NCBI RefSeq assembly: GCF_008831285.2
Contig: NC_045138.2
Location: 20,183,934-20,247,933 of the forward strand
From: Nymphaea colorata
Taxonomy: Eukaryota; Streptophyta; Magnoliopsida; Nymphaeales; Nymphaeaceae
Direction of reading: 5' to 3'
Length of the DNA stretch: 64,000 bases
The notes under the pieces were generated by a model, which was not told the DNA's origin, searched no databases, and worked only from the letters and a program-made list of their open reading frames with translations. Positions 30 to 54,917 of this stretch are shown piece by piece. Position 1 is the stretch's first letter; the number at the start of each line of letters is the position of its first letter. Made by a program: the position numbers and the translations under genes.

Positions 30-3000
30 GTTTCAAGGGTGGAACTCTTGGATGAGGTTCAGGTAAAGGCAATCAATTTTGCCAATGGAAAGAACTTGCC
101 AGAGGCCCCCACTTTGATGTTTGAATTTGTAGGCACTGGTGAGTATACTTTAGCTTAATTATTCACGTTTTCAATATATCTTAACCATTTTCGTCATAAA
201 TTTTCACTTTTTTTACATTTATTGATGTCACTTCCAGGTGCCATCTACGTGGTCACCCCACCTTGGCACCATCTAATCCACCTGGGCTCTGTAGGCATAA
301 ATCTAGTCCCCAGGATGGCCAAAGATCTTATACTGACCATTAGGAAGCTTAGATTTTTTCCTCTTTTTTTCTACTTTAATGTTTCAAAAGCTAGGTTAGT
401 GTTCTAATTATATTGGATTTCTTGCAGTTGTTTTAAATTCTTTGGGCTAATTCTACAACTTTCATGCTAATGAATGTTTACACTTAATTTTGGGTGTCAA
501 CTAAGCCAATAGGCCCTGCCTCGGCACTGACTAAGCCTTTTAGGGTGTCTCCTTTCTGACAGTGATTAAAGTTCCTCATTCTAATCCCCGCAGGAAAACA
601 ATAGGAATGCACAAAAACAAGAGGAAGGCACAAAAATTGAAGGGAAACTCAATAACAGTAATGAATTAAGGTTTCTTGCTCAACAATTAGTCCAAAAACA
701 AAAGAAAATATGCTTAAACCCTAGATTCGAATTGGATTTCAGACCCACTAAACAAAATGGTCAAAATCCTAAAGAATATCAATACCAAATCCAAAGCCTA
801 AATGGATCCGAATAAGGGGCCCAGCCCAGTAATTCTACACACAGGCCCACTAATGCTACACTGCGTCAATCTCCACAGGTTGAAACATTCGGCTCCTGAC
901 AAATGAGGTAATGCTGCTGTGATGTAGATGAGGCACAATAGAATGACGGTCCTTTGGACTGCCTTGAGTAGGTGCACAGATGTCACCGACTCACTGAGAT
1001 AGGATTGAAGCCGAACCCATTGCTAGGGATGTTTTCCATACTTAATCTTAAAAATTTATCCAAGCAAAATGTTTTCCAAAATGTTATGATCAACTACAAA
1101 TAAAGTAAAAATTTTTATCACCAAATTATTTTCCATCATAAATTTTCATGCTCCCCACCTTCACTTCAGAAGTATGTTGGAACTCCTATTTCTCAGTTTG
1201 CTTCTATCCAGAAGGACTTCTGCTTATATTTCTTTGGGCAGCAATGTTCTAAGCTCATTTCATTTTCCTTCTCTCTTGCCATGTTTTTTCCCCCATCCAA
1301 ATCTTTCATTTGACTGGTATTCTAAGATCTCCTTGTGCTAATATTCTTTCAGATCTTAATGTATTTATGAACTATCCTAATGTATGAATATCACTCACTC
1401 AGAAATACTGTTCTCGAGTTTTTGTCATGAGGTTTCCTCTGGTATCTTTGGGTGAAGGTAGATTTGGGGGGAATCTCAAGAAAATCTAAGGAAATCACAA
1501 AAAGTGGATAAAAAAAGGAAGTGAAAAATTCAAGAGAAGACATAAAAGAAAACAAGAACAATGTCCAAATGACTGATAGATTTACAAGCACCATCTAGCA
1601 AAATAACAACTAGCAAGCCGCATGAGAAGTTTAAGTTTCAACTGCAAAAGTTTCAAGCCTTCGAGACTTCAACGATATAGTTGTAAAAATGAATCTCTTA
1701 TAAGTCATCATTCCTGCTCCCAACTCTGAGAAAAAGAAAAAAGATCAATATTCTACTAAACACATATTGGATCTGGAATTAGTCATGATTTAGATGTGCA
1801 CGTGGTGTACATAGGATTCCTGTGTGAATGTGATTGCAATACTGCTCTCACAATTAGGGGCATTATCTAAGTGGCCTGGATATGGCAAAATGGCCATCCA
1901 TGTTAGCACGCTGATGCATGGATGCTGATACTGAGACCCACTTGGAAATATTTTTAAAAAAATGCATACTAGTTTTTGCATTTTTCATATTAATTTTAAA
2001 GTTTTGAATATTATTTTTGCATATTAATTCTCCAAAACGTATTTTTTTTATTATGTGTTAATTTTGCATATTTTTTGTAGAATTTTGCACATACACATGC
2101 ACACATATATATTTGTATCATAGTCACAAATAACATTTCAAAGTTTTAAACGGCGAGGTTTTTCTCGGGTATAATATTGCGAGCTTCAAAAAAACGGGAA
2201 AAAATTGGAAAAAATATGGTAATTTTTTTTTTAAAATAACAATGGGAGAAAAATAAAATAAGTTTGAAACTAATAACACAATCATCAAAAGATAAGTAGA
2301 TTTCCAACAAATAAAAAATCCAAAATGAAAAAAAAAACTGTTTGGCTTTAAAAAAATGAAAAAACGCGAAAAAATGTGTTTTTTTCGTTTTTTAATGTTT
2401 AAAAAAATGCATTTTTTAAAAAGTTTTAAACGCAATTTAATTTATCACATTTTTTAAAAAAGAAAATGCATTTTTTGTGTTCTTGATTTGTATATATACA
2501 TTGCCATATCCCCATATCCATACACGCCCCCCATACCGGTACATGTACCATATCAGTATCCATGTGACTTAGGGCATTATTGTCTCATAGTTTGTTTCAT
2601 AACAAATATATACTTAAACAAAATTAGTTTTACATCTTCGAAATTGGAGTCATGACTCTTGTGCACACCTTTGACTTCTTTCTCCTTACTTTTCTGCAAA
2701 CATAAATTGTGTTAGCCGTTCTTCCCAAATCTAACATGGTGTCAGTGCCAAGTTACATTTTTAAGGTTGTGATTTTATCCATATGGTATATATACATATA
2801 TTTGTGTGTGTGTAATTTATTGGCTAAAGTTGCCACCAGCTGTTACAGACAAATGGTGCTCAAATTAACAGATTTGATAATGAACAATGATTAATATCTT
2901 GGTCAAACAATCCAAGAAATACTACAAGATGGTTTTATTGTTTCATTTATTTTGGGCAGTGACATGTTCTTTTTGTCATTGGGTTCAAACCATGTGAAGT

Positions 3001-6000
3001 GACCACCATTCTTGAAGCCATCACCTCCAAATTGTATGCCATCTATTTGTTGGTGCTAATATGGAAAAGTCAAGCTATCGTACAGTACTAAAGAAAACAC
3101 ATGAACATGGCACATCACTTTTTCCTAGGAACCAAGTGCGAGCATGTTAAGCAACATCTGTATGAAATTGGGTGAAAAGATTTGTTTCCTTGGTTGTTGA
3201 TGCGTTTTCTTTATTTGCAAGAATTATTTTTAGCTTATTCAAGAAACTGTTTTGGGTATCATTGTCAGCTAAGCATTGCTTATTCTCATTGATATACTTG
3301 TCTTGTCTAAATATTTTCAGAAGCATATTCACGTGAACAGACACTGTTAGTCCAGAAGGTCGTTGCAAAGCACAACGGCTCTAATTTTGTTTATGTGGAA
3401 GATCCAGAGGCTAAAAAAGAACTGTGGCGGGTGAGTTTGTTACTTAAGTACTTTAACTCTTGGAACATAATCACATTCAGAAGAGAAATGTTTTATCAAT
3501 GCTGACCTCATTTTATAATTATATTGTCTGTTTTGAATGCCAAACATCTACTGCCCTCCCTTGAGACATAAAGATGCCTCAGGAGATGGCACTGATAATT
3601 TATAGGGGTCATTTTTGGTTTTATAATGACTAAGGAGCTAGCAAAATGTGCTTTGAAAGAGGAGGGAAAATTAATTCTCTTTGTGGTGAATACCATAGTA
3701 AGAAGCAACATGATTAGAATCAACACAGGTACAAAAAGTGTACAACTATAAATAGTAAGCTGGCAATTAAAGAGGACGTGGATAATAATATAAAGGGAAA
3801 TATCCTAAGTGCACATGCATACAGAGGCTTGTAGTATGAAGATCTGTTCAGAACTGTGTCACATGGATGCTGCTGCAGATATGGGATATACGATTTTTAT
3901 GAAACATTACAATGTGACTTCTATATAAAGAGGTAGAATGCAGGAGTCAAAGTGGAGAGTCGATGTGATAAAGGTGTAGAACTTAAGATTGCTATGGAGT
4001 TCTGTTGTTGTGTCCAATTTCATGCAATAAATGTTGATTTTTTCCACCAATGGAAAGTGGCACCAGGATCTCATACATAGTAGACATTTTTGAGTCTAAA
4101 ATATTTTGATAAGCACCGCACCACCATGGAAATGGTATTTAGGAAAATGAAAGGGGCATTCCACCAGTCGCTCAACTGATAATACTTAATTTCAGGTTTG
4201 TCTGCATGAAGTTTCCTTTCTCTCTCATCTCATTAATGGGTTTTCCATTGTTATTGTCAATGTTCCTTATGAAATTGCACTGATCGTTTTCACTTAGCTG
4301 CGTTTGATTGCCCTGGCTCTTAGATTTGAGGTGATTTGAGATCCTTGGTTCTAAGATTCTAGGATTTCAGTTCAAGGGTAGATTTGAAATTCCTAGTTTG
4401 AAAGCAACAATCAACTCCAACCCCCTCAATATTGCTGAGCCCCAAAATTGGTGGGAAGTATCTCAGGTGGCATGGCTATATCAACCTCCTTTCAGCCAAT
4501 ACTTCCCATGCACGAAGTCCGAAAACTGCACCCCCTTCCCCATAGATTTTACATGATTCTTGGATTGCAAAACCATGAATCTTACATCCATGGTTTGTTA
4601 AAACTTTGGATTTCACATCAGATCTATTCCTCCAATCTTAAATCCAATGCTAACAAACCCTTAGACAGTCATGCATATACGTTACTTAAGATTCTGAAAA
4701 GGAATTGAGAACCATTTTATTGGGTAACTGAAGTTAAATCGTTTTGTAATGGCACATATGCTTCTGGTAAGGTCAATTAAGTTACCAGTATCAATATGGC
4801 AGATCTATCTTTTCATCCCTAATCTGTGCTTCATATGAATCATTTCACTAATACGTTATTTATCATGATTACATTATTAGACTTACATCCTTTAAGTTCT
4901 AGTCTGTGACATCTATCTGGAGCAATCCTTTTCAAAATATTTGAAAAAAAATCAATTTGTTACGGAAATGTAGCATCATGTGCATTTTTGCGTGTATGTT
5001 TTATGTTATATGCCTACATGTTAATGGTGGTATCTCTATGTTGAAAGCAAAAAGAGACTCAAGCCTTGGCATCTAACAGTCTATGATGAGAGTTGGCACT
5101 ATCTAGTTCACTAGGACATATGAAAATCCTTATTAAGGCTGTAAAAAAGAGTTAATCGAGCAAGGAGTTGCATCACATAAGTTAATAATTTTATTTCCTC
5201 AGTCGTTGACTATATATAAGAATCCTGTTATGTACTCTTCCTTCTAAAACCCCAATGTCAAATAATTAAATTTGTGAACCATCTTGATTCTTGTTTATGG
5301 AACTTGTAACTACCTAAAGTAATGACTAATGAGTTATCGCGATGTTACACTGTTGGATGTAGATTGAGACTTTATGTGAAAACAAGCTATAGTATTAATA
5401 GTAAGATTGACAGAAATGAGCTCTGCTTGAGAACTTAAATTCTTAATGTGTAAAAGTCATCATTGTTATAAATGTGAATAATAAAATAATTATCAGCACA
5501 TTCAGTAGCCTGCAACATGTTGGTCATATGCTGAGTCAGGTTATGTCACTTAAATACTAGATCTAGAAGACTAGTATGGCGTCTCCATGTAATGGCTAAC
5601 CAAATATAGTTTCTACTTTCTATGTCATTATGAAGCTGTGTTTGCCTCTTGGTGGTACATGCATATGATTGTTGGACTATCTTCCCTTTACCAGTTTATC
5701 TATTACTAATTTGATGAATGCTTCTATTTTTTAGTTATTCTCCAGAGATAATTTGTGAGCGGAATTTCTGTTCATCCTTGCTTTGAGTTTGAATGTATTT
5801 GTGCTTTGGCTAACTCTTTCTTGCTTGTAGATAAGAAAAGAGGCACTCTGGGCATGCTTGGCAATGCGACCTGATTATGAGGCAATGACCACTGTGAGTT
5901 TAAATTCTGAACTTTGTAATAATTAAAATAAAGGTCACTCATGTTACTGTGATCAATTTGACTTTATTAGCCATGCTTTTGTATGAGTATTTTGAAAAAG

Positions 6001-9000
6001 GTAAAAAATGGTAGGGTTGACAAGCACTCTCAAGAATGCTTCCGTAGTTCAACATTCATGCAGATGCCATTTGTCATGATACAAATTTAGGCTAAAAGGT
6101 CCAATGAACATATAACTTGTCTTGTTGAAGAGGCAATACTGAAGAAGATTGATGCCTTTCATCCACATTTTCATGTTATCTGAATGCATTAGATACCACT
6201 TGGCTAATTATCTATGAAATTATCAGTATGTGGTTCTAATGGCATGTTTTACAGTTTTATCAGTTTCTTCTAGTATTGTAATTCCACATTGACTGAAAGG
6301 GAGCTTCATGTAGTCCTTTCACTTGTAGCATAACTTTATATATTCAAATTTATCATCCATAAAATTTGCAGCTACCACCTCATTTTCTCCTTTCACTTTG
6401 AAACACATGTATGGTACATTTTTGTAGATTGTCTGATAGATTAAAATAAATGATGTTTTTTTTTTTTTTGCAGGATGTTTGTGTTCCTTTGTCACGTCTT
6501 GCTGAATGCATTTCGAGATCAAAAGTTGAACTTGATGCCTCTCCACTGCTCTGGTATGTGCTGCTACTCAGGGATGAGGATCTCATGCAAGTTCAGTAAA
6601 GTGAATCCATTCACATCTGCATGTTAACACCTGCATCTTCTGCTTCCATCAGCATGGTAATTGCTCATGCGGGTGATGGAAACTTCCATACAGTGATCTT
6701 GTTTGATCCGAAGAATGAAGAGCACCGTCAGGAAGCAGAAAGGCTGAGCCACTTTATGGTTCACACCGCATTATCCATGGAAGGTATTGAATTAAAAAAT
6801 ATAAAATAATGAGTGAGCAAAGTTTTTAGGTTTGCCTATCAAAATACAATTGAATAAAGAATTAGATGGTGCTCTTTGATTGATTACTGTTTAGTGTTAC
6901 TGGTGCTTTCCAGTAAAGGAATCAGACATATAGTTTGTTATGTTCAGTTCTAATTTGTTCTGCTGCATAAGGATTGCCTCCTCTAATTTTGGCAGAGTGA
7001 TTCTGTGAAAATTACTCCTTTGGATATGTTTGGTACCTAAAATAATTATCCATGAAGGATCTGTTTTTCTTTCTTGAGAAAATTTGACTCCTTTAACAAT
7101 CGAAATTGCTCAAGCTCATTCTGGATACTTTCAGTACCTAAATTTTTTTTTCCATGAAGGGTCTGTTTTTCTTTCTTGCTGAAGTTTGTCTCCATCAATT
7201 TTATAGTCTAAGTTCTTCAAGGTCATTATGTCTGTACAAATTTTGCAAGTAATTATTGTCATATATGCTGAAGTTGCTTTTGTGGAAATTGCAACATTGA
7301 TCTTGCTTTGTCGGACAGTCTTTTCAAAATCAAAACTAGAGTATGTATTTCTTCTATATGATAAAACTGGTATGATTTATCTTGACTATTCATGTCACTG
7401 TCTTAAGCATGAATGATACAGAACAATCTACAAATTCATCCTGATTGAATACAGTGAGGTAAAGCATTTTTCAATTAGATCAGTCAATAAAAAGCAGAAA
7501 CTGAAAGGAGATGCATAAGAACTTTAAGATATTCTGGTTAACTGCACCACATACAGAAGGATACACTTAAATGTATGTGAACATTGCATTTTAAATAGGA
7601 GTATTTGGGTAAGCTTCTGGAGCATAGGTTTCCCAGAGTTCTTTCTCAACTACAGTATTCTGTAATATCTTGGGACTCTTCATTGCTAAAAAGATGCAGC
7701 TTTAACAGTTTAACCTCCAACCTGAGTTTCTATTTTGACTTGAAGAATCTTTTGCTTGCAACATGCCTTCCTACCGAAACAAAACACTCCCATAAGTTGA
7801 CATTTATTGCATGAGACATGGAAAATATCTATGCAGTAGGAAGCATATGTTGTCAGTTATTTGACTTTTCATTAGTTTAACCTAAACATTAGAGTATGCA
7901 TTGTCACATATTTCATGTTTTTTTGGAAAAACGATACTAACGTTAAAAAAAGCAAAAAAGAAAAAGGTGGGTTGTGAAAAAAGGTAAAAATTAATTAATG
8001 GACTTTTATAGTGTCTTTTCCAACCTTTTCCCAAATTTTTCAAATTTTTCTTTTTTTTTGACATTAATATCATTGCTGATTAAATTTTAAACTTAAACTA
8101 AATTCTTTATCATCATTAAACATTATTTTTATCATCTTATCTAGTTATATTTTTGTGCCTTTTTATTAGTTTCTCTTTTTTTTTACTTTTACCTATTTTT
8201 ATTATCTTTTTATTTAAAAAAAATGCTGAGATTTTCCTAGAAAAACAACTTTTCCAGAAGATGTCCCAAAAAAAAAAACAATCACCTTTAAAGATCTAAG
8301 AATGATATTTGTGGCAATGGAATATATTACTTGTTCCAACCTTTTGTTTGCATTTTTTTTATCTATATATCTATTGAACACGTCTGTGACATGCATTTCT
8401 TTTTCTTCCCTTTCGTCATCTATTGGAAGATTATTCTTTTCTTATTAGACTGAAGCTGAAGTAATAATAAGGGACTATTTATTTGTTATGAATTCTAATC
8501 TCTTTTTTTTCATGCCTTATTTCAAGAAAGGACTATTTCCCTTACTTTTGTATTTTGTTCTTATTTGTAGCCCTATCATTTTCACGCTGCCTGCCTGTTT
8601 GTCATGCACTCTAAGTTTTAGTTTTTTTTTCATGCGTTATTTTAAGCAGGGACCTGTACAGGAGAACATGGCGTTGGTACTGGGAAAATGAAGGTACCTC
8701 CTGCAGCTTTACTGTGAAATATGAAATATTTTTCATTGCAATATGTGCTTATTCACGTCACCCTTTTTCATTATATTATTTGCTTACTTGATGCTTGGAC
8801 ATGTTTGGTAAAGATGCCTGCTTCTTCTGAGAGCTGCTTTTCTGGCACTGATTAGCTTATGTAGCTTTATTATTGTTGGACTCCCAGTATATCTGAAGTT
8901 CTGAATATTGGTCCCTCTTTTAAAAGAGTATCGTAATGATAAATTTACATCTGCAAAACCTGATGCAGCTAATTATCTGCACAACTTTAAAACATACATG

Positions 9001-10614
9001 AGAGGAAATAATGGCTGATATGCTCTTGGTAATATGACTAGCACTGTGCAGGCAGTGCAAGAAAGGTCCGTTGCATGCTTTTATGCTCTTTCAAATTCAA
9101 ATTTCTGTGTTTGAGAAATATTCTACGAAGGGATATTGGTGACAGGTCATCATGGAGTGTATGCTGGAAATCTTTGGGCATTTGAAGCATAGGAATGATG
9201 CTGCCAAGGAGTGTTTTCTAAGGGCATGAAGCCCCAGCTACACAAACAAAAACGTGGATCATTGGTTTCCAAATAAAGTTGCAAACTATTCTGCAAGTGA
9301 TGAATGGGTTTCAAATAAAGTTAAAGATATCATCTTCAGAAGTAATTAATTGGTTTTCGTAGAGTAACATATCGGAGCATTTGGATCTGCAATAGAGATG
9401 ACATGTTTCATGTAGGCTTGATACATATGTAGAAATGCCTTTTTGTTTTTATGCAAGGAAACCACATTCAGATAGTGAGGCTTAGTTGCATTTCCGGCAT
9501 GGCTAATGCTCTTTCTCCGAGGGATTATACATTCTTTGGCTTGTGCAGACTCATAGAAAGTGGCTCCTGTGGGTTTTGAATTCTTAACTGTTTTCTTCAC
9601 AGTCAAATCCCGACCCGCTACAACTCCCTGGAGGAGTAACTACGTACTACTTAGATACAGAGTATGACACTGTAGTTTGTACAGCTGTCTAACTGATAAT
9701 GGAATAAGAACCCCATGCTATCCCTGGCGTAATTGTGAGAGCTGATAATGATATTTTCACTGCTGCAGATTCTGTTTGAAGTTGATGGCTCCAACCTTCA
9801 TGGGTCATCTATTGTAAGTTATGCATGTAGAAGTATTGTAAACGGCGGTGTGTATCAGGCCTTATTGGCCAGTACGTATCATTTTGCCCGTGGGTCGCAA
9901 TGTGATGAGGCCTGATATGGTCCTATCATTTATCGGCCGATACAAACCCAATAAGTGCTTTATCAGCCCATATCTGAAATCTGGCAGTGTTTTTTATTGT
10001 TAGTTTTTATGATTTTTTTTGGAAAATACATTTAAAAAAATAAGAAAAAGTATTATGTTAATGATGGCCAATACAATCGGATATGCCATACCATTCAGTC
10101 TCCCGATACAATTTTACGACATTAGTTTTTAGCATTCATAGTTTTCTACATCTGGTTCTGCATTGCTTAGAGATGCAAAGTTTGATTAATACGTAATACA
10201 ATTAATCTTGGGTTCATGCTCTTCATTCATATCCAAATAAAAACGTGGTCTCCATCTGTTGTGCATCTAATTTCATGTTCATGCTTTTCATGGAACTAAT
10301 TTCGTGTTCAATGTTCATGCTTTTCATGCAAATTTAAGTAACTCACAGGTAGGCTTGTGACTTCGCAAGATAATTTGCTGCCTTGAAACTTGAAACTTGC
10401 TTGTTTCTTCGATCTTTTTTTTTTTGCAAAAGTGCAAAACTCTTCTTCTATGTTTTATCCGGTCTAGTAAATCTGGTGCAACTTTTTATTTCAGTATCTT
10501 GAGGAAGAACTGGGCGTAGAGGCACTGAGGACCATGAAAAAGATAAAGGCTGCTTTGGACCCCAACGACATCATGAACCCTGGAAAGGTCATCCCTCCTC
10601 ACGTTTGTTTTTAG
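30..10614 (+). CDS. DLD: D-lactate dehydrogenase (cytochrome), mitochondrial, copy 1; 3' part of the gene
   Basis: FAD-linked oxidase that turns D-lactate into pyruvate and passes electrons to cytochrome c, the last step of the methylglyoxal/glyoxalase route in mitochondria. Seven coding exons are visible: 30-138, 3321-3430, 5831-5893, 6474-6553, 6653-6783, 8650-8693 and 10495-10614 (stop TAG). They equal exons 12-18 of the complete copy at 15.7-31.5 kb, with the same exon lengths (109, 110, 63, 80, 131, 44, 120) and intron phases. The roughly 218 residues belong to the C-terminal FAD-oxidase half; HAGDGNFH and GEHGVGTGK, both conserved in the family, are intact. By hand count about 28 of 218 residues differ from copy 2. 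All frames are open and all introns keep GT-AG, so this looks functional, with exons 1-11 expected before the window. Its introns are far longer than in copy 2 (3.2 kb against 0.24 kb for the first). AATAAA follows the stop at 10654. Confidence 0.93.
2140..2480. repeat. AT-rich interspersed repeat in DLD copy 1 intron; inverted relative to 17455-17800
   Basis: A roughly 340-bp AT-rich block with runs of A and T. Its reverse complement aligns by eye with 17455-17800 over most of its length; shared landmarks include GTTTTAAACGG, AAAATAAAATAAGT, CATCAAAAGATAAGTA and CAACAAATAAAAAAT. No coding capacity; the Phe/Lys-rich frame on the minus strand here is a by-product of the composition. Class unknown. 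Confidence 0.7.
2490..2580. repeat. Short repeat with CATACCGGTAC-type motifs
   Basis: Contains stacked CCATATCC, CATACCGGTACATGTACC and CAGTATCCATGTGACTTAGG. A similar vocabulary (ACCGGTACGG, GCACCGGTACTCG, TATGTGACATAGCTTGGG) recurs at about 46160-46480, so this is probably a degraded copy of a dispersed repeat. No ends or target duplications could be fixed. Confidence 0.4.
4300..4660. mobile_element. Possible MITE with short imperfect terminal inverted repeats
   Basis: The block opens GCGTTTGATTGCC and ends with sequence whose reverse complement is GGGTTTGTTAGCA, about 10 of 13 matching. TTAG lies just outside both ends (one side separated by CT), which would suit a PIF/Harbinger-like target duplication. 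The interior is non-coding with several short palindromic words around GATTT and GGATT. It sits in the 2.4-kb intron between the second and third visible exons of DLD copy 1. Family is inference. Confidence 0.4.
9840..10135. repeat. Degenerate TATCGGCCGATAC-type interspersed repeat
   Basis: Lies in the last intron of DLD copy 1. Words such as TATCATTTATCGGCCGATAC, GTATCAGGCC and CCGATACAATTTTACGAC point to a decayed dispersed repeat; a related block lies at 26170-26400 in DLD copy 2 (GATATGTATCACATTAAGTA, CTATCGTATTGGG). No coding region or clear ends. The class is not recognised. Confidence 0.45.
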
Positions 10615-15726: not shown

Positions 15727-18700
15727 ATGGTGTTCCGTTCCTGGTTCTCCCGCTTCAGTCCCTCCTCTAAGCACATCGCTCGCGCACTCTTCGCCACCGG
15801 CGCTCGCGAACGGTGCTCTTATTCTGCTGAGACCTTAGCTCCGAAGCGGAGCGATCGTCGCTTCCCCTGGCTCGCCGTGGCGGTTGCGCTGCCATCTGGA
15901 GCTGCTGCATTCGACTTCCTCCATCGGGATCCTTCTCTGTGCGATTCGTCTCAGGAGTTGCATCGGTACAGAATGCGTTAGCTTTGAGAGCTTGGAACTT
16001 TCGGTCTCTTGTGGTTCTTGACGTTGATAGCATGACCAGAGTTAACACTTAGTTTCTTCTATTTTTATGTTAGTCCGTCTTTCTAAAGTTGTCGTTTCCG
16101 GGATTGAGTTTCAGCATCGAAAGGACAGGAAGTAGCGGGTTGGTGGTCCAAGGACGTCATAGGCGTGCGCCGCAGGAGCTCATTGACGAACTGAAGTCTA
16201 TCTGTGATGTAATTAGTTCCTTCTTAGTTGCTTCGTCTCATTTCTATCTCTTTTAGCGATTTTCGTTGCGTATTTTGGACATGGAGCATGGTTACTATGT
16301 TGTCTCGGTAATGGTATCTTAGCTACTGAGCATGCAGCCGGTGTTCATGGCCTTTGACCTCACCAGTTTGGCGTGTTGTCATACCTCACGGTTCCTCCCA
16401 CCTGGTGGAATTTCAAGAAGGGCGTTTTTTGTAGAAAGAACTAAAATCACGTGCCCATGAAATTGTAGCTCGATCTAACTGAACTAATGAGCCTACTCCA
16501 AAAATTGAACTGAAGGGAAACAATATCTTAAACCGAATGAAAATCTCACAAGTGAACTGCTGTTTTTTCACAAATTCTCCAGTATATGTCGCAATAACCT
16601 TATTATGCAGGATTTTGTTCACGTATTTGTGTTATTCATGCTTTGGAATCTGGGGGGGAAATTTCTTCAGTCCATGTTTCGGCCTTCTTGAATTGAAGTT
16701 CCAAATAGGCGCCCTTTGTCTTTCTGATTTCCTCCATCATTTCCATTGATGTTGTTTGAGCAAAATTCACGAAAAAGTACATCGCATTGCAAGTGAAGTG
16801 AAGTTTTGACATTCTTGTACTCCTGTCCATAGCAAACAGGAGGTGCGTTTGCTGCTCTGTGGGACTCCTCATTTTTGGATTGAATTACCCAAAAACTTTT
16901 ACTCATTATGTTTCCTCTGCAGGACAATCTAACTTTTGATTACGAGGAACGGTGTTTTCATGGAAAACCCCAGAGCAGTTTTCATAGAGCAGTCAACATT
17001 CCTGACGTAGTTGTCTACCCAAGGTGTGATTCATTTAAGAAATACTTTCTGTTATTTTGGAGCTAGTCCTATGTCTTCTTTCGTGTTTCTGATGTATTTT
17101 GAGTTAGGTTGTTTACCTGTATAACTTTAGTTTTGGTTGGTGGACTATCCTCAGCTGAGCCAATCCAACCAGTTTATACCCTGGCTTAAGTGAACTTCCT
17201 ATTTAGGAATAATCTCTGTCTTGTAATGGAGTACAGAAGGGTACACAAGCTGGGCAATCTGAGATGAGTTTCAACTTCAGGGCCATTAGTCGACACTATA
17301 AAGCTCCTTGAATCCTTATCAGTTGGCTGGGACAGATACCTATGTGCTTAGTGATTTGTCCTTGACATTTCCTAATGAGGATTCCATGAGAGTTTGAAAC
17401 TGGTGGAAGGTAGTTCCAGATTTCCTCTGTAGTTGGAGTGGTATAGAATAGTCACAGAAAACACATTTTTTTTTAAAAAAACGCAAAAAAACACGAAAAT
17501 TAAATGGCCGTTTAAAAAAAAACACGTTTTTTTGAAAAAAAAACGTTAAAAACGATTTTCCATTTTTTTCACTTTTTTCATTTTTTTCAGTTTTTTTAAT
17601 GCCAAACAGTTCTTTTTTCATTTTCTATTTTTTATTTGTTGCAAATTTACTTATCTTTTGATGTTTGTGCTATTAGTTTCTCACTTATTTTATTTTCCCT
17701 GCATTTTTAGTTTTTTAAAATTTACCGTATTTTTTCCCTTTTTTCCAAGTTTGTCGTATTATACCAGAGAAAAAAACTCACCGTTTAAAACTCTGAGACG
17801 TTATATTTGTGACTATTAAATCATACCATCACTATTAAATTACTGGCCATCGGTCACTTGTCTAGTACATCCGATTAGTTTGACTATTTTAATTAGCTCA
17901 TGCCTCATGCATGGTCCATGGCGGTTGTGTTTGATCATCATTTTGTGTATAGCCTATGGTCATCCTAATATGAACAATGTAAATTGCTATATATTATTTT
18001 TCCTGTATTTTCCTGGTATTGATAGTTTTAAGGTCATAGACGATCTATTTTGGAGCTTGGTTGTAGTTTTATTTTATTTTATTTTTTAGGTTCATTCGTT
18101 TCTTTAGGAAGATAGGAATTACCAGTGCTTTCTCAGTCAAAAGCCACAGTACTAAGCTCTTGAGAAGTCTAAGGTGGCTTAGTTATCATACCAACTCCCA
18201 TGCATTAAGAGTAAGCATGATATGACAATTCGTATGAGAACTCATCCACTTTGACTGCTGCTATGCTTGCCACAAAGTTTAGGCACGTCTATCACAATCT
18301 TCCTCTTTACATTGAAGTGGAATTTCCAAGATTTGCCTTAAACCATGTTTCACCCCCTCCAACTCTTCCAAGTCTTTCGGTGACTCTAAATCAGTGCCGA
18401 AGTACTAGTTGCAAGTGAGAATCCCTGTAAAACATCTAGTTTATAGGTTTTGTATGGAGAACATTAAAGGAGTAGGAGTTGGAGGATAATTCATGAGTAT
18501 GCAAGCATCTTGCACCCTGCTTCTATACTCTGGAAACAGAGAGTCTGTTGTCTGCAAGCAACAATCTTCAGCTGAAACATTTTTAATTAAATCCACCATA
18601 ACGTTTGCTTCCCTCTCTGCAGGTCTGAAAGGGAGGTTTCAGAGATTGTTAAAGCTTGTAGCAAGCACAAGGTATATTGTTTTTGTCAATTGTGTCTCTC

Positions 18701-24700: not shown

Positions 24701-24888
24701 TTTTTCAAAAGGGTGGATAATGGCTGGTGCTTTGAATTGCTTTGTATATCTCAACTTGTAGGCCAACAGTCAAATTGATCCATGATTCATAATTGGTGCA
24801 CATAGTCTTCACATATTATAAAAACTATGTATATATATAGATGTAGATATAAATATAAATAAATAAATAAATAAATAAATATATATAT

Positions 24889-24922
<34 letters not shown>

Positions 24923-36886: not shown

Positions 36887-37882
36887 ATGGTAAAGGAAGC
36901 TCCATTCGAAGTAGAAAACTATGGAGGCCTAGTTCGAGTCTTTAGCGACGGAAGTGTGAAACGTGCAGATGATCCCTACGCGAAGGCTCCTCTCAAAGAT
37001 GATCTTGGCTCTGTCATATGGAAAGACTACACTTTTGATCATTCTTTCTCCCTTCAACTTCGCATCTACAGGCCTTCTTCCATTCCACCAAACAAGAAGC
37101 TATCCATCTACATCTACATTCATGGTGGTGGTTACTGTTATGGATCTCGAACCTGGACCATGTTCCACAACTATTGCCACCATCTTGCCTCCAAGCTTCA
37201 AGTGGTTGTTGTTGCCCCTGATTACCGTCTAGCACCTGAAAACCCACTTCCGGCAGCCATTGATGATGCCTTTACAGCCGTCAAGTGGGTACAATCTCAG
37301 TTTCTCTTTAAAGATTCAGCCTCTTGTCTCATCGATTCGGCCGATCCCCAACGTGTTTACTTGAGTGGGGACTCGGCTGGCGGAAATGCCTGCCACCATT
37401 TATCCGTCGGACTTGCGACCCTAAACATTTCGCCGCTGTGTATTAGAGGTTACATTTTGATTACCCCAGCTTTTGGTGGCGTAAGGAGAACCTATTCGGA
37501 GCTGTTAAGTCCTCTTAGATCTCTCACTAACATGGAAAACTTCGACTGCTTGTTCCGACTTGCGCTACCAAGAGGATCAACAAGGGACCATCCACTATCA
37601 AATCCATGGGGTCCGGACAGCATGGACTTGGCCTTGATCGGTATCCCACCAATGCTAGTAGTCGTGGCTGGCCGCGACGCCTTCCGAGATCGACACTTGG
37701 CTTATGTGCAGGCACTTAAAGGTATGGGAAGAGACGTGGAGATGGTGCTATTTGAAAGTGAAAAACATTCATTTACCTTGTTCCGCTCTGACTCTCGGGC
37801 AAACACTGAACTCATGGCTCGAATTATGAGCTTCATTGTTGCCACCGGCGGTGAGGCTGGCAAGACAAGGTCTCTGCTTTGA
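36887..37882 (+). CDS. CXE15-like carboxylesterase, intact
   Basis: Intronless alpha/beta hydrolase of the plant CXE family, 331 residues. All catalytic elements are standard: HGGG oxyanion motif (79-82), nucleophile Ser163 in GDSAGGN, Asp264 in AGRDAFRDR and His294 in EKHSF, plus the DYRLAPE family signature. The layout matches Arabidopsis CXE15 (GSRTW after HGGGYCY, IRGYI, LPRGSTRDHPLSNP with GP following). Arabidopsis CXE15 breaks down strigolactones; a similar role here is inference from clade membership and gene order. The likely location is cytosolic, as no signal peptide is present. The frame is open back to 36788, but the TATA box at 36810 and alignment with the neighbours favour 36887. 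It is the only copy in the cluster with both an intact frame and canonical active-site motifs. Confidence 0.93.
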   Translation: MVKEAPFEVENYGGLVRVFSDGSVKRADDPYAKAPLKDDLGSVIWKDYTFDHSFSLQLRIYRPSSIPPNKKLSIYIYIHGGGYCYGSRTWTMFHNYCHHLASKLQVVVVAPDYRLAPENPLPAAIDDAFTAVKWVQSQFLFKDSASCLIDSADPQRVYLSGDSAGGNACHHLSVGLATLNISPLCIRGYILITPAFGGVRRTYSELLSPLRSLTNMENFDCLFRLALPRGSTRDHPLSNPWGPDSMDLALIGIPPMLVVVAGRDAFRDRHLAYVQALKGMGRDVEMVLFESEKHSFTLFRSDSRANTELMARIMSFIVATGGEAGKTRSLL

Positions 37883-38839: not shown

Positions 38840-39361
38840 TTTACACGAATTTGGAGCAATATTGATGTGATTCAACAAAGAATCATAGGCTAGACGGGGC
38901 AAAATGATATTATTAAGGATTTGTTTGTGAAGCCGCCAGATTGTTCCAACTGGCCAAGGGATTGTCATGAAGATCTCATGTGGAATGAGACGAAGAGTTC
39001 TGTGTCCAAGAAATATTGAAAGAATTTTTTTCTGCTAAAAATGTTCTTTAGTACATGAAAGAGCAACAAGAACATCCCCATCTCAACACTCCGGACACAT
39101 ATTACATATAAAGCAAATGTAAGACAGACAATATGAAAATAGTAGATAATACATTGTGGTACATGATCCAGGTCTGAGATCCAAAACAATAACCACCACC
39201 ATGAATACAGATGTAGATGGGTAGCTTCTTGTTTGGTGGAATAGAAGAGGGAAGGTAGATGAGAAGTTGAAGGGAGAAAGAGTGATGAATCCATACGACA
39301 GATCCATCAATCTTTGAGAGGAGCCCTGGCATAGGGATCATCTACACGTTGCACACTTCCG
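38840..39361 (-). pseudogene. Inverted, truncated carboxylesterase copy with its 3' flank
   Basis: Read on the minus strand, 39361 down to about 39150 matches the intact gene from GGAAGTGTG (family motif FSDGS onward) through HGGGYCFGS and the following TW..YHN segment. It then jumps directly to the 3'-flanking sequence of the intact gene (CTTACATTTGC, GTAATATGTGT, AAAGAACATTTTT, ATCATTTTGCCC, TTGTTGAATCACATCAA) down to about 38840. Start codon, catalytic Ser, Asp and His are all missing, and the frame is disturbed near the beginning. The upstream end is cut exactly where the GAGCTCG-rich repeat at 39362 begins. It is the only carboxylesterase copy in this window on the minus strand. Confidence 0.85.
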
Positions 39362-39495
39362 ACGAGTCGAGCTCGAACACAGTCTCTCGAGTCAAGTTCA
39401 AGTTGGATTTGTGAAGCTCGTGTCGAGCTCGAGCTTACTAAACATGAGTCAAGCCAAGCTCGAGCTCGATTTGGCTCGTGTACAACCCTACCAAA
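39362..39495. repeat. GAGCTCGAGCTCG-type repeat, short copy
   Basis: Rich in GAGCTCG, CGAGCTCGAGC and GAGTCAAG words and ends near GGCTCGTGTACAACCCTACC. Same family as 56440-56890. Such blocks recur in many plant genomes; I do not assign a superfamily. Confidence 0.7.
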
Positions 39496-40587: not shown

Positions 40588-40602
40588 CACGACACGGCGC
40601 CT

Positions 40603-41464
40603 CAGATAGTGAAAGACTGCCGAGGCGTCCTCCGAGTCTTCAGCGATGGCTCAATCGTGCGATCCGCGGAGCGGAGTTTCCCCGTGACCGTGGATGACGA
40701 TGGCTCGCTCAGCTAGGAGAACCTCGCCTTCAACCCGACCCACTCCCTTCAACTCCGCCTCTACAAGCCTCGCGGGACCCCGGCGGACAGCCTGCTTCCC
40801 CTCGTCCTCCACTTCCACGGCGGCAGATTCTGCATCGGGTCCTTCACGTGGCCCAATTTCTGCCTCCGATTTGCATCCACCCTCCCGACGATCGTCGCCG
40901 CCGTGGACTATCGCCTTGCTCTGGAGTACCCGCTCCCGGCGGCGATCTACGACACCTTCGCCGCGGTCGACTGGCACCCCCGTCTCGTCGGCTCGATTGC
41001 GGATCTCCGGCTCGGGAGACTCCGCAGGGGCAAACATCACCCACCACCTGGCGGTCGGGCTGGCCGGAAAGGGCCTCTCTCCGGTGACCGTGCGAGCGTT
41101 CGTCGTCTTGATGCCGTTCTTCACGGGCGAGGAGGGAACAGCGTCGGAGAGGGAGTGCCCGGCGACGGCTTTCCTTAACCTGGAGGTCAACGATCGGTAC
41201 TGGAGGGTTGCGCTGCCACGAGGCGAGACGCGGGACCATCCGGTGGCGAACCCGTTCGGGCGGCGGAGCGCGGACCTTGGTCCGGTGGAGCTCGGCCCGA
41301 TTCTAGAGGTGGACTACGCTCGGGGGCTAGAAAGGATGGGCAAGCGCGTGGAGCTCGCTGAGTTTGAGGGAGAGCAGCGTGGGTTCTCCACCGTCGAGCC
41401 TAACTCGATGGCCGCCCGCGCGCTCTTGGATCGGGTCCAGCACTTCGTGAATGAGACTTCTTGA
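40603..41464 (+). pseudogene. GC-rich CXE15-like carboxylesterase pseudogene
   Basis: Translates in pieces as a plant carboxylesterase: VKDCRGVLRVFSDGSIVRS at the N-terminus, HGGRFCIGSFTWPNFC where HGGGFCFGS is expected, DYRLALEYPLP, then in another frame GDSAGANITHHLAVGL and LPRGETRDHPVANPFG, to a stop at 41464. Defects: no ATG, a TAG at 40714-40716, a frame change around 40990-41030, loss of the segment that should carry the catalytic Asp (ILEVDYARG follows directly), and GEQRGF where GEQHGF is expected, so the catalytic His is Arg. It is plainly much richer in GC than the other copies and than all flanking DNA. It resembles Arabidopsis CXE15 at several points better than its neighbours do, so it may be a relic of an older cluster member. 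Confidence 0.9.
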
Positions 41465-41821: not shown

Positions 41822-42155
41822 AGAAAAACGTAAATCAGAAAGTTGGAGGAGCGAAATTCGGGTGATTCTGTTGCCGGTTGTTCCTCAAAAGGCACGGATG
41901 TGCCGCTACGGGGTTTCCGGCGGAACGTTTTTCGCTCAGGTCCTTGGAAGGCTTTGCCGTAGATTTTCCCCACACCCACTTATCGCCGGAGCTCTCGCCG
42001 GAAATCAAAAACGGAGGCCGGACTTCTCACTCGCTCATCGCTATCTAGGCAGGGAGGAGGACGAGCAGACGCGATTTGACGTTTTCTTTTAAGTTTGGCG
42101 GGAACCGCGCGAAGAGACCAGTGCTCCGTCCGTTCTCCCCGGTTTTCTGGAACAG
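41822..42155 (+). promoter_or_regulatory. Promoter/5' non-coding exon of GTD-binding gene A
   Basis: This block aligns with 50818-51179 upstream of gene B: GCGAAATTCG, GGGTTTCCGGCG followed by AACGTTTT, CGCCGGAG, GCCGGAAATCA, GGGAGGAGG, GGCGGGAACC and GCGAAGAGAC, ending CAG|GTACGC in both. The shared donor GTACGC marks the end of a non-coding first exon (42155 here); the CDS exon begins after the acceptor at 43644-43645. The exact transcription start cannot be placed; no TATA box is evident. Confidence 0.7.
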
Positions 42156-42159
42156 GTAC

Positions 42160-43640: not shown

Positions 43641-43730
43641 TTCAGGCCATTATAGCTGAATGGAGAGGGTGGAAATTTTGAGGTTGGGGATATAAAAGCA
43701 TCATATACACAATCTGTTCTAAGGAACAAT

Positions 43731-45152
43731 ATGGAATCTCCTTCCGACTCCAATGAATGCTGTAGTTCTAGCCCAAATGGCAGCGGTAAATGGAGCCGCT
43801 CCATGAAGAGGAAGGCTGAACAGGATGAGGAACTCGCCGGTCACAGAGTGGATGCGGTTGATGATTCGGACTGCTTTTCAGTTGCTAGGATTGAAATTGA
43901 GAATGAGTGCATGGTTTTGAGAGAGACGGTTAACAGCCAGCAGCAACAAATTCAGGAGCTTTGCATGGAGTTGGACGAAGAAAGAAATGCATCTTCTACT
44001 GCTGCAAATGAGGCCATGTCTCTGATCTTGCGCCTGCAGAATGAAAAGGCTGAGGTCCAGATGGAAGCTGTGCAGTTTAAGCGGTTTGCGGAAGAGAAAA
44101 TGGCCCATGATGAGCAGGAGCTGCTGTGTTTGGAAGATTTGTTACATAAGAAAAATCAGCTCATAGAGTCGCTAAATTCTGAGATACAAGCTTACAGGAA
44201 CAGATTGATGAGCTATGATTCGGATCAGTTCGATTTCGGGGATGCTAAGGAAGGTTCTTTCACAAGCGGGCAAAACGGAAATAGGAGAGATCGGGAGAAG
44301 CAGGAAAACGCAGATTTTCATGAACCAGAAGAATCAAATAGGTCCGTGTATTCAGAGGATACTCCAGTCCGTGGGCTGAAGTTCAACTCCTTTGCATACC
44401 CACCATTGAAATGCAGCTTGAGCGGGACTGAAGATTTTTCAGATGATGACGATCCATTGGACTTCGTGAACTATGTTTCGGGCGTACCTCATCGTGACAG
44501 AGGTCAAGTTGAGAATTTTGCAGACAGTAAAGGATTAAACACACCAAAAGGTTCGAAACATTCTAGGCATTTGTCTGCAGATAGCACTAGCGCCTGCTCT
44601 GTTGTAGTGAAGGAAGGAAACCAAGAATGTGTTGCAGAAAACACAGAAAACGAAGAATATGTTGCAGAAAACATGTTCACATCTGGCCCAAGTGAGAACC
44701 CAAAAAGGCTGAAAGAGTTTTCTACTCTTGAAGATTATTGCTGTTCTACAAATTGGGGCAATTCTGCTGACGATGCTGCTGATGATGCTAGTGACGTAAT
44801 AGATGCTGTTGACTCCACACATGGTGCGGGTGATTCCAGGAAGAAATCAGATGAAAATGAAGGTTCGGAGGCGGAACAATCTCCATACGACAGCAAGGTT
44901 GAGAGTCCTACTTATTATACAACTGATGCGAACTTTTTCAATCTTCGACAGGACGATGGCCCTTTTGATTGTAAAGTTCAGCATGGGAAACCTGATAAGA
45001 AGTCTGGTATACCAAGAGATTCGTTAAAACGGACCAACATGGGAGGCAGAGATATTGCTAAGAAGCTATACTCAAGTCTTCAGTCCCTCGAGGCAGACAT
45101 GGAATCGATGAGGGAAATAATCATGTCCATGCAGGCAGACGATTGCATCTGA
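43731..45152 (+). CDS. GTD-binding (DUF593) protein, MYOB7-like, copy A; C-terminally short
   Basis: Plant myosin-binding (MYOB) family protein, 473 residues in one coding exon; MYOB proteins anchor class XI myosins to vesicles through the GTD-binding coiled coil. That domain covers about residues 49-158, from SVARIEIENECM to EIQAYRNRL, and has no prolines and clear heptads. An acidic, Ser-rich, poorly conserved region follows, with a small doubled motif (CVAEN/YVAEN) near residue 305. It ends at SMQADDCI, where copy B continues for about 100 more residues. The ERIYRLE-type segment found in B is also missing. The following DNA gives no convincing continuation. The CDS exon opens at 43646 with a short leader. 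It may be a shortened functional protein or an early pseudogene with its 3' end lost. Nearest remembered Arabidopsis protein: MYOB7 (At5g06560). Confidence 0.82.
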   Translation: MESPSDSNECCSSSPNGSGKWSRSMKRKAEQDEELAGHRVDAVDDSDCFSVARIEIENECMVLRETVNSQQQQIQELCMELDEERNASSTAANEAMSLILRLQNEKAEVQMEAVQFKRFAEEKMAHDEQELLCLEDLLHKKNQLIESLNSEIQAYRNRLMSYDSDQFDFGDAKEGSFTSGQNGNRRDREKQENADFHEPEESNRSVYSEDTPVRGLKFNSFAYPPLKCSLSGTEDFSDDDDPLDFVNYVSGVPHRDRGQVENFADSKGLNTPKGSKHSRHLSADSTSACSVVVKEGNQECVAENTENEEYVAENMFTSGPSENPKRLKEFSTLEDYCCSTNWGNSADDAADDASDVIDAVDSTHGAGDSRKKSDENEGSEAEQSPYDSKVESPTYYTTDANFFNLRQDDGPFDCKVQHGKPDKKSGIPRDSLKRTNMGGRDIAKKLYSSLQSLEADMESMREIIMSMQADDCI

Positions 45153-46564: not shown

Positions 46565-46718
46565 AGTTTTCTTGAAGTTCAGGACTAAGTTTCTTCTTTT
46601 AAAAAATTTCTAATTATTAAATCATACTCTAAACAGGAAGAAGTTTTCTTGAAGTTCAGGACTAAGTTTCTTCTTTTAAAAAATTTCTAATTATTAAATC
46701 ATACTCTAAACAGGAAGA
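46565..46718. repeat. 77-bp perfect tandem duplication
   Basis: The unit starting AGTTTTCTTGAAGTTCAGGA and ending CTCTAAACAGGAAGA occurs twice head to tail (46565-46641, 46642-46718) with no visible mismatch, so it is recent. Non-coding. Confidence 0.95.
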
Positions 46719-50817: not shown

Positions 50818-51179
50818 TAATCAGAAAAATGAAAATGAAATATATAAAAAACGAAGATTTGACCAGCGAAATTCGCATCCGTCGTCTCTTGGTTTTGCCT
50901 CAAAAAGATTTGATTTCCCTCCTTAGGGTTTCCGGCGTAACGTTTTCCTCCGGGGTCCACGGAAGGTGTTGACAGACGTTTCCCGACCCGATTCTCGCCG
51001 GAGTTTTTGCCGGAAATCAGAACGGGGCATGATGCTCTGATTCCCTTCCAGATTTCCATTTCTCACGTCCAGACAAGGAGGAGGCCTGAACGCCCGTTCC
51101 GCGGCAGTTTCCCGTCGGTTTTGGCGGGAACGCCGCGAAGAGACGGAGAACTCCGCCGTTCTCTCCGCTGTCAGATCAG
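50818..51179 (+). promoter_or_regulatory. Promoter/5' non-coding exon of GTD-binding gene B
   Basis: Counterpart of 41822-42155, with the same ordered words and the same exon end CAG|GTACGC (exon end 51179). The next exon probably starts at 51941, after ATGGTTTCAG, giving a leader of about 70 bases before the ATG at 52013. Conservation of this non-coding block between paralogues, while the 5' intron has diverged, suggests transcription or translation control elements. Confidence 0.7.
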
Positions 51180-52012
51180 GTACGCCTTTGTCGATGGTTT
51201 TGGATCGTTACTGTTCTGAACATGAGGGGATTATATGAAGCTTCGCGTATTTCTGTTTCGTCTGAGATAGAATTTGTGAATGTCGCGCGTGAAGTTTTGA
51301 GACGAGGCCAGGCCTCGTTTTCTGACGTGCATTTTACATTTTTTTCTGGAATCCAACGAGGCTTTGAGGTATTGCTGTGATTTTCATACGCGTATCCTTT
51401 GGTGTTCGATTTGTATATTCTGAGCTTGAGTTGCCTGAAAACGATTGACAAATTTGTGCTTGTATTGTAGTCCGTTTAATTTCGTAGTAGATTTCAGAGG
51501 ATCTTTTGTTAAGTCATTGTTACGTGAAATAGGAGAGCGAAATAATCATTTGAAGCTTACTTCCATTTACAATTGAAGCAGATGGGATATCTATTTATTC
51601 ATTTTCTGTTTTATTTTTCTTTGATACAAGAATTAATTCCGTTTTGGTGGTGGTAATTTAAATTTCCTGCTCATGAAAATAATTGTGGAAAGGCTTGTGG
51701 TAATAACTGAGTGGAATTTCTCTGTCTATTGATCAGGCAAACTTTTGAATGTGGATCGGATACATCATGGATGGGAAAAAACTACGTAAAGAAAATACAG
51801 CAGGCTTGTTCGTGGTTCTTTCATATGGTTTTTCCCCCTCGTCTTATTGTCGTTCAGATGAATTTGAATAAGTTTGAATTCATTCCCAGAAGGTAACTAC
51901 TGAAGATGGTGGTGATTGCCTTTTTGCTTTATGGTTTCAGGGAACTGCGACTTAATACAGCGACGGACACCTGATGATTAAGAGATAGGAGCAGAAACGT
52001 CCGTTCCAGGTC

Positions 52013-54917
52013 ATGGATCTTCAATCTCCTTTGGGCTTCTCGAATAAATGTTGTACTAATAGTTGTAGCCTGACGGGTAGCAGCAAATGGCATCGTTCTG
52101 TGAAGAGGAAGGTTGAACAGATTGAGGAACTGCTGGGCCATAGAGGAGATTTGGTGGATGACCTGGACTATTTTTCAGTTGCTCGAATTGAGATAGAAAA
52201 TGAATGCATGGCTTTGAGAGAGACAGTAAATAGTCAGCAGAAACAAATTCAGGATCTTTGCAGTGAGCTAGATGAAGAAAGGAATGCATCAGCTTCTGCT
52301 GCAAATGAGGCCATGTCAATGATTTTACGGTTGCAGAGAGAAAAGGCTGAGGTTCAGATGGAAGCTCGGCAGTTTAAGCGGTTTACGGAGGAGAAAATGG
52401 CTCATGATCAGCAGGAGCTGCTGTCAATGGAGGACACTTTGTATAAGAAAGACCAGCTCATACAATCACTCAATTGTGAGATACAGGCTTACAAGCATAG
52501 GCTAATGAGTCTCGGCTTTGACCAGTTTGACTTTGAAGATGCTAAGTTGAATGAAGGTTCTTCCACGAGTCGATATAATCGAAATAGGAGTATTGGGGAG
52601 AAGTGGGAAAATGCAGATTGGCAGGAAACAGAAGAATCAAATAGATCTGTGTATTCAGAGGGTACTCCTTTAGGTCGGGGGCAGAAACCTAATCTTTTTG
52701 AGTACCCACCATTAAGATGCAGCTTGAATGGGATTCAAGAATTTTCTGAATATGATGATTCATTAGACCTTGAGAAGTATGCTTCAGGTGAAACTCCTCG
52801 TAACCGGGAGCAACTTCAGAATTTGGAGGACAGGATTTATCGTCTAGAGCATTTGGATGGTAAATTCAACTATGGAGAGAATCTCCGTGACAAAGGGGTA
52901 GCCACTCCTTCTCCTAGAAGATCAAGACATGCTAGAAATTTATCTACAGATAGTGCCAGCACTTATTCTGTTTTGGTGAAGGAAGCACACCAAGAATGTA
53001 TTGTGGAAAACGTGTTGATGTCAGGTCCAAGAGAAAGCTCGAAAAGGCTGGAGGACTTTTGTGCCAATGAGGATTACTTCTATTCAAGGAATTGGAGCAA
53101 TGCTTCTGAACTTGCTGATGATCCTAGTGACAGAATATATACAATTGACTCGGTTCATGGTGCACGTGGCTCTAAGCAAACATCAGATGAAAAAGGTGGC
53201 TGGATGGGGGAACCAGTTCCATACAGAAACAGGGTTGAGAATGCTAGTTATTGCATGGCTGATGGAAATTTTCGGACTCTGCGACCTGATGATGGTGCTC
53301 TTGATTGCAAACCTCAGATCGGAAAGCTTGATGAGTATGTTGCTTCACCTAGAGGTTCTTTGAAGAGGACCGATATGGTGGATGGGGATGTTAAGAAGCT
53401 GTATTTGAGGCTTCAAGCACTTGAGGCAGACAGGGAATCAATGCGGCAGTCAATAATGTCAATGCAAACAGATAAGGCTCAATTGATATTGCTAAGAGAG
53501 ATAGCTCAACAGCTGTGTAAAGAGCTCACACCAGAAAAAAAGATGGTCAAAAAGCCATCCTTGATTGAAAGGATTTCATTTATGTCAGTGTTGAAGGTAA
53601 AATCTATGGTTTTAGTATGTACTATTTTCTTTAATTGGTTTGCTGAAGAAGCTATACAGATTATTAGTTTCTGCCTTGCTGTCATGTGTCAAAATCAAAA
53701 TTTTCATATGAATGTCTTTTTTTCTTGTCTTCCTTTTTTTCCTTCCAGTAGCTGTCAGCCCTTTGATTTGCCTATTGAGGAGCTATACGTTTGATCTTTT
53801 TTTCCCCTTCACCTTCTTGATTAGTTTTCTTTTTCTGGTTTTTTGCTATTTGGTTTTCTTAGGTTATAGAGTTACCTGCGCATCACATTCCCAGTTATGC
53901 TTATCTTTTCTTCATTGAGTGTGGAACTGTGAAAAAGGGAGATAGAGAGAGGCTGCCAATGTGTCACACCCAAGAAGAAATGAGAATTTTCACCTAGGTA
54001 AAAGAAATAGAATTTTTAAGAATTCCTATATAAGCATACCCTCTCAAATGTGATGCTTTTGTCTTGATATGACATAAAATGCAGAGAGCTGTTATTGGCT
54101 ACAGCATTTACAAACCTAATTTGGGGAAATGGATCGGCTATCTGGTCCTGTCTCTAGCATATGCTCTTGAGTGAATGATTGAAACAGTAAAGGGTCGCCT
54201 GAAACAGAATCTCTCATTTAAAACACCCCAGCTCCAATTAGGTTCCTGTTGTTGTTTTGGTTGTTGGTCTAAAGGAGTTTATCATGTACTTGCTAGTCAA
54301 TTTTATTCCAACCAGATATTAACTCTGATCTGACCCTGTGTTGAGTAATGAACAGCTGAGGGAAGTGACTGCATGAACATGGTTAAGTAGGGGACTCTTA
54401 TATACAATATGACAGCTTCTTTATCTGTAATTATTTACAAGAACATATTATCTGGTCAAATGTGATTGTACCTAAATGGACTGTATGCATCACCAGTCAA
54501 ACATCCTTTCATCTTCTGGTTTATGTTGGATTCCTGAAGCATTTCTAACTTTTCTTTTTTTCTTTTGTTGCTTCTAGAGCATGATTTATGCTTTTATTTT
54601 GGTTTTAACTTTTAACGACTTGCATACAAGTGACGTTTCATAAGAAACTTACTCTAGTTTACCGTGCATCTGATTTTCAGTGGATTGTGTCTTTTATCTT
54701 CTGCAGAAAGAGACCACAAAGAATAAAGTAAGTAATGGTTCGCTCATTTATTTACTCTTTGTAACCACATATGTACAATTACGAGGTAATCATCTTGTTT
54801 CCTTCCCTTTTCAGATACCCATTTGGTCCAACCGGGAACAATGTGGGCCTTATATTGCTTTTGGATAGATCTTCACAATTCAGACGTTGGAGAGGCATCA
54901 CCAGAGCAAAAGCATGA
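52013..54917 (+). CDS. GTD-binding (DUF593) protein, MYOB7-like, copy B; full length
   Basis: MYOB-family myosin adaptor, 577 residues from three coding exons: 52013-53596, 54681-54727 and 54815-54917 (1734 nt). The frame stays open past 53596 to 53794, but that stretch is intron: the donor is GAAG|GTAAAA, and the exon after GATTTTCAG (54681) restores a family tail reading WIVSFIFCRKRPQRIK, then YPFGPTGNNVGLILLLDR, ending RWRGITRAKA. The GTD-binding coiled coil covers about residues 55-162. Further conserved parts are an EDRIYRLE coil segment, a Ser-rich middle, QLILLREIAQQLCKEL and the mildly hydrophobic WIVSFIFC stretch near the C-terminus, which may touch membrane. Copy A lacks the last parts. 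From memory the tail matches Arabidopsis MYOB7, which supports the exon model. Confidence 0.92.

Follow-up and report, generated by a model that had tools for sequence, protein, structure and literature searches.

The stretch of Nymphaea colorata DNA analyzed in this work (64,000 nucleotides, contig NC_045138.2, positions 20,183,934 to 20,247,933; hereafter, the window) raises the question of why three gene families with no evident common role should lie side by side, and why each of them should be present in more than one copy. The window harbors, in this order, two D-lactate dehydrogenase (DLD) genes, five CXE15-like carboxylesterases, and two MYOB-type (zein-binding/DUF593) genes, all of them on the + strand except for a single esterase fragment (CXE4). 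The answer that we favor, and that we consider very probable, is that an old collinear block was inherited from an angiosperm ancestor, and that each of the three families then underwent its own tandem birth and death.

Gene content of the block

The window is plant nuclear DNA, judging from its gene content, with a GC content of 34-43% (4-kb windows). The features on which the following analysis is based are:

30..10611, + strand: DLD-1, 3' half, seven coding exons; the 5' exons lie beyond the window start
30-137, 3320-3427, 5831-5890, 6474-6548, 6657-6785, 8652-8690, 10495-10611, + strand: DLD-1 exons (inner coding limits, adjoined by AG/GT)
15727..31508, + strand: DLD-2, apparently complete; start region at 15727, exons 16923 to 31505, then the stop
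32571..33560, + strand: CXE1, open carboxylesterase; Ser162, Asp263, His293, LAGG in place of HGGG, GNSSG
34836..35780, + strand: CXE2, broken; indels, stops, nucleophile motif destroyed
36887..37879, + strand: CXE3, open carboxylesterase; HGGG, GDSAG, Ser163, Asp264, His294
39153..39411, - strand: CXE4, inverted N-terminal fragment (tblastn, self-comparison)
40597..41461, + strand: CXE5, broken (tblastn, alignment)
41911..42010 / 50926-51022, + strand: stretch 5' of MYOB-A, repeated 5' of MYOB-B (75% identity over 100 bases)
43656..45152, + strand: MYOB-A, zein-binding (DUF593) (Pfam, self-comparison)
51989..53794, + strand: MYOB-B, zein-binding (DUF593) (Pfam, self-comparison)

The comparison of the window with itself revealed the collinear exon pairs of the two DLD genes, the esterase group, and, at 43.7 and 52.0 kb, a pair of long coding regions, with a similarity within families far above chance (tblastn E 2e-140 for CXE1 vs CXE3; blastn E 3e-159 for MYOB-A vs MYOB-B). 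The five esterase places, two open and three broken, were located by tblastn using both open copies as queries and are grouped at 32.5-41.5 kb. Both MYOB genes matched PF04576 (Zein-binding) well above the cut-off of 23.1 bits (110.5 bits for MYOB-A, 117.8 for MYOB-B), and neither of them had a match in NCBIfam. We infer from their position that they correspond to MYOB7 rather than to another MYOB.

The intron-rich DLD genes were traced with a profile derived from 79 bacterial homologues, with which we searched the 2847 open reading frames (ORFs) of at least 15 residues present in the window. At E < 0.4 it matched 15 ORFs of DLD-2 (18591 to 31505) and 7 of DLD-1, the weakest E values being 0.23 and 0.39 for the former and 0.28 for the latter. 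The DLD-2 matches cover positions 66-474 of the 476 of the profile and include N-terminal exons between 18.6 and 25.7 kb; the N-terminal pieces at 15.7-17.0 kb, among them a second exon at about 16.1-16.2 kb, were read by eye only, the profile match there being non-significant (E 13). The start of DLD-2 at 15727 is Ser/Arg-rich and, by eye, resembles a mitochondrial transit peptide. According to Pfam, DLD-2 contains both FAD_binding_4 (129 bits) and FAD-oxidase_C (220 bits); in the case of DLD-1, FAD-oxidase_C, the C-terminal domain, is the part falling inside the window. Among solved proteins, the best PDB match of the joined C-terminal peptides of DLD-1 was the mammalian mitochondrial D-LDH (LDHD, 8jdc; 174 bits vs 80 for glycolate oxidase). 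The likeness to this enzyme consists of the FAD-oxidase_C match over chain residues 263-471 (DLD-1), with FAD_binding_4 also present in DLD-2, whereas the plant gene differs in being rich in introns and present twice. The self-comparison also disclosed an inverted repeat of about 250 bases (79% identical, 2120-2374 / 17573-17816) lying inside introns of both DLD genes, which may represent a small transposable element.

These data (profile, tblastn, and Pfam) agree with the content and order proposed by a previous sequence-only reading of this DNA, that is, two DLD genes, five CXE15-like copies of which two are open, and two MYOB genes, with no other gene between them. That reading had extended the block to 54917; the MYOB-B ORF, however, stops at 53794. 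No additional gene was found between the members of the trio, although a small multi-exon gene could be overlooked, as a spliced-gene finder was not run. Twelve unassigned ORFs picked from intergenic and flanking DNA (8 of the 12 inside the block) gave no match above the Pfam cut-off, the sole one below it being to DUF5783 (E 0.033), and neither tRNAs nor Rfam families were found in a scan of the window.

Locus codes in Arabidopsis and rice

Arabidopsis locus codes follow the chromosomal order in steps of ten. In the available parts of the respective papers, AT5G06560 is MYOB7 (PMC10940516), AT5G06570 is CXE15 (PMC9004025), and At5g06580 is D-LDH (PMC7393112), which are the codes given in the earlier reading. 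According to these codes, the same three families occur in Arabidopsis in the same order, mirror-wise; the difference is that each code stands for one gene, vs the 2, 5, and 2 copies of the window, where three of the five esterases are broken.

As for rice, the label GID1L2 is a common one for CXE-type genes. The accessible portions of the rice literature place D-LDH at Os07g06890 (PMC7393112) and apply the name gibberellin receptor/GID1L2 to LOC_Os07g06830 (PMC6374497) and to LOC_Os07g06840 and 06860 (PMC3676415; for 06860 also PMC10806070 and PMC7734852), LOC_Os07g06860 being elsewhere named PrMC3, 2-hydroxyisoflavanone dehydratase (PMC2824728). Hence, by locus number, several genes labelled as CXE-type adjoin the rice D-LDH, genes that these sources identify by label alone (GID1L2, and for 06860 also PrMC3), from which the DLD-CXE part of the block, at the least, would seem to predate the monocot-eudicot split. 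Other rice codes retrieved by text matching were discarded, as they belong to different genes whose codes merely start alike. No MYOB neighbor was found near Os07g06890 in the literature on that region, which was followed in part; the available parts of the tobacco and chickpea/lentil papers contained no CXE15 synteny; and no paper on DLD-CXE-MYOB microsynteny appeared among the matches listed (title and start of the abstract), which is no proof of absence.

Ages and decay of the copies

The relative ages of the duplications were estimated from synonymous (Ks) and nonsynonymous (Ka) divergence, computed by NG86:

CXE2/CXE3: 307 codons, Ks 0.164 ± 0.029, Ka/Ks 0.39
DLD-1/DLD-2: 212 codons, Ks 0.685 ± 0.104, Ka/Ks 0.086
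MYOB-A/MYOB-B: 457 codons, Ks 0.923 ± 0.100, Ka/Ks 0.24
CXE1/CXE3: 330 codons, Ks 1.328 ± 0.183, Ka/Ks 0.20

The oldest and the youngest of these duplications are clearly separate in time, and the Ka/Ks values of the DLD, MYOB, and CXE1/CXE3 pairs show that the open copies are under purifying selection. A single duplication of the whole trio was considered and rejected, since the copies of each family are contiguous, whereas a block duplication would have interleaved them, and since the Ks values are unequal. The amplification in place of each family, suggested previously, is thus borne out, with contiguous copies and events that, by Ks, occurred at different times.

The homology between the two MYOB genes stops at 45139 in MYOB-A, abruptly and just before its stop codon (45139-45152), and at 53472 in MYOB-B. 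MYOB-A is therefore 3'-truncated relative to MYOB-B and devoid of the C-terminal hydrophobic segment of the latter (residues 529-547, mean hydropathy 1.81 over 19 residues, vs a best value of 0.34 in MYOB-A); it may have lost a membrane anchor, if this is indeed the role of the MYOB-B stretch. The recurrence of 41911..42010 at 50926-51022 points to a duplicated segment whose start lay well ahead of the coding sequence, on its 5' side.

Decay is most extensive among the esterases. CXE2 and CXE3 have about 2 kb in common, flanks included, which is what the tandem duplication of a segment would leave; CXE2 exhibits three stops in the tblastn reading and, when aligned with CXE3, seven indels and one in-register stop. 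In the case of CXE4, the DNA similarity to the CXE3 flank extends to 38848. CXE5 contains an in-frame stop, as well as a frame change and a missing stretch between 40974 and 41000; of its catalytic residues, the stretch of the acid is missing, His is replaced by Arg, and HGGG has become HGGR. Its GC content at third codon positions (GC3) is about 0.8, vs 0.46-0.49 in CXE1 and CXE3, in a surrounding region with 37-43% GC, so that one tandem esterase family holds two very different base compositions.

The two open copies are identical at 201/330 positions. Among solved proteins, the best relative of both is AtCXE15 (246 bits for CXE1, followed by GID1 with 143; 235 bits for CXE3, followed by CorS with 149), which also ranks first with both readable pieces of CXE5 (107 bits vs 72 for a GID1, and 72.6 vs 58 for a CXE). 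The identity to AtCXE15 is 124/312 for CXE1, 125/312 for CXE3, and 120/274 for CXE5. Over the 274 columns common to the four sequences, the matches to AtCXE15 are nearly equal (120 for CXE5, 122 for CXE1, and 121 for CXE3, with 169 between CXE1 and CXE3), and because of this near equality, the CXE5 and CXE1/CXE3 lineages may have split about as anciently as either of them did from AtCXE15, a comparison to be read with caution given the broken state of CXE5. In the phylogenetic tree, which included six of the seven aligned sequences (CXE2 was aligned and then omitted, CXE4 was absent, and two solved esterases served as outgroups), CXE5 joined AtCXE15 weakly (SH-aLRT 59.9, UFBoot 72), on a branch that is unreliable because CXE5 is broken; the grouping of CXE1 with CXE3 was weak too (69.8/61).

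According to the available part of PMC11294565, the catalytic triad of AtCXE15 is formed by S169, H302, and an unusual E271, a catalytic acid that, of the 20 Arabidopsis CXEs, CXE15 alone possesses, and its HGGG motif (83-86) contributes G85-G86 to the oxyanion hole. The esterases of the window do not share this Glu, its place being taken by Asp263 in CXE1 and Asp264 in CXE3 and the corresponding stretch being missing in CXE5; for this reason, we filed them as CXE15-like and not as CXE15. Both HGGG and GXSXG are present in CXE3. CXE1 possesses GXSXG and, at the HGGG position (32802-32813), LAGG, while the Ser, Asp, and His of the triad are retained; activity of CXE1 is compatible with this change, since both oxyanion-hole glycines are preserved. 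The sequences of CXE1 and CXE3 align across the N-terminal helix of AtCXE15, which in that enzyme opens and closes, from its residue 6 onwards. In summary, the likeness to this strigolactone hydrolase (PDB 8vca) comprises an alpha/beta hydrolase with the N-terminal stretch, the Ser and His of the triad, and HGGG in CXE3, and the difference lies in an identity of about 40%, in Asp for Glu271, and in the LAGG of CXE1. AlphaFold models obtained from two-row alignments were too poor to be read (mean pLDDT 36.2 for CXE3 and 33.6 for CXE1), the NCBIfam search matched the CXEs only to bacterial lipase/esterase models, below their cut-offs, and a plasmid search with CXE3 returned, in the best 5 of 429 records, distant relatives only (27-31% identical), which were not used.

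Forces that might have shaped the block

If the inheritance of an old block is the correct explanation, the ancestor would have possessed three functionally unrelated genes, encoding DLD, a CXE15-type esterase, and a MYOB7-type myosin adaptor. Each family would then have undergone tandem duplication within this lineage, independently of the others and at a different time, through unequal exchange or a similar local copying; selection would have retained both DLD genes, CXE1, CXE3, and both MYOB coding regions, and CXE2, CXE4, CXE5, and the tail of MYOB-A would have been left to decay. Some points weigh against this explanation. The comparison comprises Arabidopsis and rice, through locus numbers taken from the available parts of papers, with the rice CXEs known by label; the gap in Ks between the DLD and MYOB pairs is about 0.24, with a standard error of 0.10 on each value, so both events could be near in time; Ks values above 1 are near saturation; and a simple head-to-tail exchange fails for some copies, CXE4 being inverted and CXE5 very divergent.

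A different force might be a common regulatory or chromatin domain holding the trio together, with breaks selected against. We regard this as very unlikely, and nothing was found in support of the shared chromatin control that had been suggested for this locus. What can be adduced, from partially available sources, is the adjacency of the trio in Arabidopsis and of two of the three families in rice, together with the naming of AT5G06570 in a section that deals with genes putatively targeted by the H3K4 methyltransferase ATX1, by which at most this one gene would be chromatin-regulated; on the other hand, no function common to the three genes is known to us, wide gaps separate the two DLD genes (10.6-15.7 kb) and the two MYOB genes (45.2-52.0 kb), and one of the esterases is inverted and three are broken. 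An artefact of assembly, with two haplotypes laid end to end, would be a trivial explanation, as draft plant assemblies can yield tandem near-copies in this way; it was rejected, and its probability is in our view negligible, given that Ks values from 0.16 to 1.3 are far above the usual allelic variation and that, in the self-comparison, the copies had little alignable non-coding DNA in common apart from the CXE2/CXE3 block.

One might also argue that the esterases represent another clade II CXE, of the CXE6 or CXE17 type, and that the agreement with the gene order of Arabidopsis is partly fortuitous. The identity to AtCXE15 is indeed only 124/312, 125/312, and 120/274, CXE1 and CXE3 carry Asp where AtCXE15 has Glu271, and AtCXE6 and AtCXE17 are absent from the solved matches and, hence, outside the comparison. 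Nevertheless, this appears improbable: AtCXE15 leads the next solved relative by 103 bits for CXE1 and 87 for CXE3 (which upholds the CXE15-like label of the sequence-only reading) and by 35 and 14 bits for the two CXE5 pieces, the N-terminal stretch aligns to it from residue 6, and the position is the same as in Arabidopsis.

The inherited block with separate turnover in each family therefore remains the explanation that we prefer. Plants commonly contain collinear blocks of three genes as well as tandem arrays of such a size, so the trio alone is not surprising; the view that it is unusual is not shown by our data, and the locus looks like a product of the ordinary course of genome evolution, not like a special system. 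With it, the DLD-CXE-MYOB neighborhood is known from one more plant, and esterases related to a strigolactone-degrading enzyme are seen to arise and decay locally. The new details are the roughly equal closeness of CXE5 to AtCXE15 and to its open neighbors, the high GC3 of CXE5, the LAGG of CXE1, and the absence of the hydrophobic C-terminal segment from MYOB-A. The part that deserves a specialist's glance is the turnover of the esterases, in which one broken copy shows a weak grouping with CXE15 and one open copy has a modified oxyanion motif. GID1 is thought to derive from a CXE. By analogy, it is conceivable, though rather unlikely, that the ancestral strigolactone-hydrolase copy (CXE5) is dead and has been replaced by an anciently diverged local pair, of which CXE1 might be a binder that does not hydrolyze, or an enzyme that has acquired a new substrate; the points tied to this idea are the GC-rich composition of CXE5 and its weak grouping with AtCXE15, and the occurrence of LAGG in CXE1 after long-term constraint. 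If it were true, this plant might depend on other enzymes for the turnover of strigolactones.

Outside the trio, the next gene found on the MYOB side is represented by eIF2 gamma exons (60886..62942, + strand), two joined exon peptides of which scored 268 bits against the eukaryotic factor. Lastly, the intergenic DNA contains short tandem arrays at 11017-11143, 12328-12508, 46564-46733, and 47839-48122, with units of 58, 96, 77, and 147 bases, respectively, and about two copies each.

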